36,352 bases of DNA, taken from the NCBI GenBank assembly GCA_944388545.1, contig CALXJE010000015.1, forward strand, positions 1-36,352, in the 5' to 3' direction. The DNA comes from an uncultured Clostridia bacterium (GTDB lineage: Bacteria; Bacillota; Clostridia; TANB77; CAG-465). Shown in pieces: positions 17,544-17,711 of this stretch. The first letter of the stretch is position 1. Each line of letters begins with the position of its first letter. Both the position numbers and the translations under genes were made by a program. The notes beneath the pieces were generated by a model. It saw nothing but the letters and a program-made list of their open reading frames with translations, made no database searches and was not told the DNA's origin.

Positions 17544-17711
17544 ATTATATGGGAAAGAATAATGAAATCTTATTCTAATAATACCAGAGCTTATCATGGT
17601 GGTTACTATGAGGATACAGGAATTATTTATCCAGTATCGTGCCGAAAAACCCACAGGACCAAGCAATTGCTAAGATGTAATGGATTTAGATTAGCATTAT
17701 ATATAGTTTAA
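17544..17711 (+). pseudogene. Orphan remnant of an FGE/C-type-lectin variable tail
   Basis: An open stretch after the Nudix stop encodes 49 residues from ATG 17562 to TAA 17711, with no credible ribosome site. From its Tyr-Ser onward, 46 residues align without any gap to the C-terminus of the pilin-FGE protein at 34845-36125. Shared positions include Arg6, Gly10-Gly11, Tyr13, Gly17, Pro21, Ser-Cys-Arg 23-25 and the ending GFRLALY-x-V. The preceding residues (WERIMKSYS) also resemble EWTMEAYS of that protein. Between the fixed positions almost every residue differs. I read it as the detached tail of a former target gene of the same family, left between the Nudix gene and the terminator. It lacks the FGE core and the pilin-like start. 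Confidence 0.7.

Follow-up and report, generated by a model that had tools for sequence, protein, structure and literature searches.

The stretch of DNA analysed here (the window, 36,352 nucleotides) is contig C15 of the 1.15-Mb genome of an uncultured Clostridia bacterium, assembled in 49 contigs (G000). By its GlyRS the genome belongs among uncultured Clostridia, with MAG matches at up to 77% identity, whereas a search with the Nudix protein gave no hit that would name the organism. The window carries, one after another, genes for a DnaJ-domain protein, an intact NUDIX-family protein and an NRPS-like synthetase (Table 1), and between the last two lies a short open frame, referred to below as the orphan tail, which resembles the C-terminal end of a full-length gene elsewhere in the window. 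This frame (17544–17711) translates to IIWERIMKSYSNNTRAYHGGYYEDTGIIYPVSCRKTHRTKQLLRCNGFRLALYIV followed by a stop; it comprises 55 codons that come directly after the Nudix stop codon (17541–17543), in the same frame, and it ends with TAA at 17709–17711. Within it, an ATG at 17562, preceded by GGAAAG, opens an ORF of 49 amino acids. A promoter-like box (17863–17891) upstream of the NRPS-like gene resembles the sequence of G001, a genome of the same genus and the one congener compared at this site. On the other side of the locus, a RhuM-Fic protein gene (14723–15535 of the window), located between a cytidine deaminase gene and the next conserved gene, is not there in G001.

Table 1. Coordinates of the orphan tail, its neighbours and the reference gene in the window
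Feature	Position	Strand	Basis or remark
DnaJ-domain protein	16548..17111	+	synteny anchor common to congener G001
Intact NUDIX-family protein (PF00293)	17124..17543	+	same frame as the orphan tail, TAA between
Two codons from the Nudix stop to the start of profile homology	17544..17549	+	
Tail-only piece, probable relic: 53 codons with homology to the FGE C-terminus, then a stop	17550..17711	+	alignment and profile
Possible AT-rich hairpin and T-run 3' of the tail (AAGATGTA...TACATCTT ATTTTTTAT)	17748..17789	+	seen by eye; terminator scan lists none
NRPS-like synthetase gene	17932..22260	+	synteny anchor
Full-length gene, pilin-like N-terminus and FGE-type C-terminus with templated variable tail	34845..36125	+	reference for the orphan tail
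Variable tail of the full-length gene	35982..36125	+	differences from the template repeat: 25/40 A, 8/92 non-A sites

Homology of the orphan tail to FGE C-termini

The ungapped alignment of the post-Nudix stretch to the C-terminus of the pilin-FGE protein, from which the original prediction started, is real: 21 of the 55 residues are identical, and the BLOSUM62 local score is 94, against a maximum of 55 in 2,000 shuffles. A profile built from 11 other tails of the same genome, with the orphan left out, gives it ~62 bits over all 53 positions (maximum for 2,000 shuffles, 9.3 bits), a similarity far above chance that places it among the FGE-type C-terminal tails. The extent of 46 residues first assigned to it holds as far as the homology is concerned but not for its start, the true one lying ~7 codons earlier, practically at the Nudix stop and in the Nudix frame, so that the 5' junction is at most ~10 nt from that stop. 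Similarly, to call the piece a 'copy of the hypervariable tail' is misleading; the family likeness stands, whereas a specific relationship to the tail at 36 kb does not, the latter being one of ~23 FGE tails in the genome, among which that on contig C26 scores best.

Neither a pilin-like N-terminal part nor the remainder of the FGE domain is present here: upstream is the Nudix ORF, there is no match to an FGE head nearby, and neither side of the orphan holds any other trace of a lost gene. Searches of Pfam and PHROGs returned no family for the 55-residue piece by itself, and no convincing microhomology was seen at the presumed deletion junction (P 0.14). Readthrough from the Nudix gene into the tail was considered, given that the frames agree and TAA alone stands between them, but was set aside; such agreement arises by chance in one case out of three, and the Nudix protein is of normal length.

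Template repeat, templated tails and the divergence of the orphan

One recognisable diversity-generating retroelement (DGR) occurs in this genome, on contig C35, with the end of Avd, a reverse transcriptase and a template repeat that reads ANSSNNRVNRGGNYNNTGSNNPASYRNNNSPSYCNSNSGFRLAL and whose coding sense corresponds to this FGE tail type. The reverse transcriptase (L014:236-1248) is the only one found in the genome, and its frame is broken at the YxDD motif; given the many templated-looking tails, the assembly may lack an intact copy. The window's FGE gene is matched in its upstream part at 35 places in the genome, many of them at contig ends. When compared with the template (L014:1270-1404), many templated tails share non-A differences (for example CGT to CGC, and TCG GGC for AAT AAC), which, to judge from the sequences, suggests a second or older template. 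A 127-nt variable tail is common to the starts of C7 and C32 (L057, L058) and the end of the C12 gene (L056), with different sequence afterwards, which represents either an assembly fork or two genes with one tail. The congener's DGR is complete: its FGE gene is accompanied by one more ORF, an ORF resembling Avd, a reverse transcriptase of 343 aa with YLDD and a repeat resembling a template. In the genome under study, a 192-aa ORF with a match to MutS domain I (PF01624) lies 3' of the FGE gene on C10 (L050:1114-1692), and by eye it is similar to the ORF in the equivalent place of the G001 cassette (L126:1574-2101).

Was the orphan tail written by this system? In a codon alignment to the C35 template, in which ~40 adenines and ~92 other bases were scored, the tails that are clearly templated depart from it at 15–28 of 40 adenines (38–70%) and at 8–18 of 92 other bases (9–20%). 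The corresponding values for the orphan are 17 of 40 (43%) and 45 of 92 (49%); hence the adenine-concentrated differences that mark a DGR variable region are not seen in it, and the proposed match to the template repeat at non-A positions, once checked, fails. Nor does the orphan keep a conserved 3' homing sequence: 7 of the last 18 bases are changed, as opposed to 1–3 in most templated tails. Moreover, the orphan's homologous stretch exceeds the template on both sides, upstream of the first codon and downstream of the end. Because there is no A bias, the homing site is degraded and the homology extends beyond what the template RNA encodes, retrohoming from the C35 template is excluded. The broader idea that mutagenic retrohoming from a template repeat deposited the tail on its own, as an ectopic copy, draws on the presence in the genome of a DGR template with this tail type and of many templated tails; it is contradicted by the same three observations, made against the only template found, and has the broken reverse transcriptase against it as well, so that its probability is close to nil. 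No template repeat matching the orphan at the DNA level was detected in the 49 contigs of the assembly, where a template in a gap is possible. The orphan was likewise rejected as a template repeat in its own right, no reverse transcriptase being nearby and its pairwise identity to all tails being 48–57%.

How, then, did the orphan diverge? In the variable part, 16 columns are conserved, and the 17 nucleotide changes that fall in them led to only 4 amino-acid changes where 9.5 were expected; none of 5,000 simulations gave as few as 4 (consensus codons and uniform substitution were used, which makes the P value approximate). This synonymous excess at conserved columns implies that most of the divergence arose under selection at the protein level, within a working gene. 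In leave-one-out profile scores, the orphan (62 bits) sits with the tails of C4 (66) and C16 (57) and with a scrap on C10 (63), apart from the templated tails (86–98 bits). The C4 and C16 tails belong to intact genes and are about as far from the template as the orphan, which, as far as its sequence goes, can be read as the end of a further untemplated FGE paralogue of this sort.

The site in relatives and other scraps of the family

In G001 the DnaJ-Nudix-NRPS order is kept, and the interval downstream of the Nudix gene, 148 bp long, holds no tail. An intact FGE orthologue is missing at the site in this congener, which has neither gene nor relic, and in none of the other relatives searched is the gene order preserved; in the other 12 relatives with a Nudix match, no DnaJ gene, NRPS gene or tail was found beside it within the flanks compared. 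The absence in G001 is compatible either with a gain of the tail here or with a loss there. Two findings in combination were to speak against the original prediction; of these, the lack of any FGE-type gene at the site holds for a congener, whereas a similarity no better than chance was not what we observed, and the prediction as a whole is thus not overturned. Two further differences in G001 are that the gap equivalent to that of the C10 scrap is short and holds no scrap, and that no FGE gene follows DUF308, unlike in the window. Together, the comparisons at these three sites indicate that FGE genes and their scraps come and go at otherwise stable sites.

The C10 scrap (C10:6111-6287, in L050) is a second tail-only piece and comprises, from its first ATG, the last 58 codons of an FGE gene, with FGE-like sequence ~16 codons further upstream. 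At C47:11235-11384 (L125:1733-1945, minus strand), the initial 20 codons of a DGR reverse transcriptase run in frame into an FGE tail, and an intact Avd (PF22296) lies upstream; this fusion is the wreck of a second DGR cassette. Conversely, C46 carries a head-only FGE piece with stops and a frame change. The tails on C10 and C47 and the head on C46 show that either end can be lost and that tails are not singled out as a maintained class. Treating tail-only pieces as a special class was rejected for this reason, and also because several short pieces are contig ends.

Origin of the orphan tail

With its homology to the family, no template signature, no DNA donor in its own genome, absence in the congener and other scraps elsewhere, the orphan is most probably a passive 3' relic of a divergent pilin-FGE paralogue. 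The suggestion that a second target gene was deleted down to its tail is the part of the original prediction that gains support. A gene of the pilin-FGE family would once have stood between the Nudix gene and the NRPS-type gene, and a deletion would have removed everything upstream of its last ~53 codons, fusing the tail to sequence at or near the Nudix stop. The lost gene would have been a member of a divergent branch, with a tail that the present template repeat did not rewrite. We infer that what remains has no function; it is probably carried passively and, if transcribed at all, would form the 3' end of the DnaJ-Nudix mRNA. Against its being a relic stand the frame still open across 55 codons, the lack of any further remnant of the gene on either side, the unconvincing microhomology at the junction and the fact that the absence in G001 can be read as gain here or loss there.

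That same open frame, with its stop at the native place, could instead mean that the 49-codon ORF encodes a functional small protein, a free-standing FGE tail under selection. Its ATG after GGAAAG and the retention of the invariant family residues would suit such a protein, but the one congener has no counterpart at the site, the tail is just part of a fold, and the conserved W, E and A immediately before the variable region have become R, K and S, as expected after truncation; we consider a selected small protein distinctly improbable. A more far-reaching variant holds that the tail-only pieces (17550–17711, C10:6111-6287 and C47:11235-11384) are free-standing small proteins, or silent donors that recombine into full FGE genes. 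If true, variation would have a second source next to the DGR, namely recombination, but we regard this as very improbable indeed.

Could recombination or gene conversion have copied the tail alone from a different FGE gene, with divergence afterwards? FGE bodies in this genome are ~80% alike and hence able to recombine, and two contigs do share the 127-nt tail end with different sequence beyond. However, neither the orphan nor its flanks have a DNA-level relative in the genome, the identity of 48–57% applying to every tail, and exact matches between it and the compared tails reach 11 nt at most; recent copying by recombination is therefore not supported, and the earlier proposal of such copying is left with no existing donor in its favour. 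Divergence with the conserved residues kept, moreover, fits a full gene better than a scrap, and the 5' limit of the orphan is not the start of the variable region. Copying followed by divergence is, all in all, unlikely. One might suspect that the assembly wrongly fused an FGE fragment with the Nudix contig, since contigs of this assembly often end in FGE genes; the orphan, though, is internal to a 36-kb contig, no matching copy of it exists elsewhere and the gene order on both flanks agrees with that of G001, which makes an artefact scarcely credible.

A relic of a divergent paralogue has precedents. In the DGR of Treponema denticola, 'suspicious' FGE-sulfatase target genes are truncated to 58–136 aa, and some targets show excessive off-template mutation (Nimkulrat et al. 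2016, PMC4891356). Both systems have an FGE-type target family with many remote members per genome, some of them truncated and some off-template, and the orphan, a short 3' piece of a target with an excess of off-template mutation, falls into the same category, in another phylum. Unlike in T. denticola, the family in this uncultured Clostridia genome has pilin-like N-termini, and the orphan retains just the last ~53 codons. With multi-target DGR variable regions (FGE or C-type-lectin fold, TvpA type) it has in common the pattern R..GG...G...P.S.R....GFRLALY and a position at the protein C-terminus; in contrast to them, it shows no A-specific differences, its homing sequence is degraded and no target gene lies upstream. 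Closest in divergence from the template and in profile score are the untemplated FGE genes of its own genome at C4:11333 and C16:10719, which, unlike the orphan, are full-length ORFs of 443 and 425 aa.

On its own, the orphan means little: it shows that the turnover of FGE-type DGR targets leaves scraps behind, as is already known from T. denticola. It does urge caution, in that tail-like pieces located far from a DGR may have arisen otherwise than by retrohoming; what tells a relic from a retrohomed copy is the comparison of adenine with non-adenine sites, together with the extent of the homology beyond the template.
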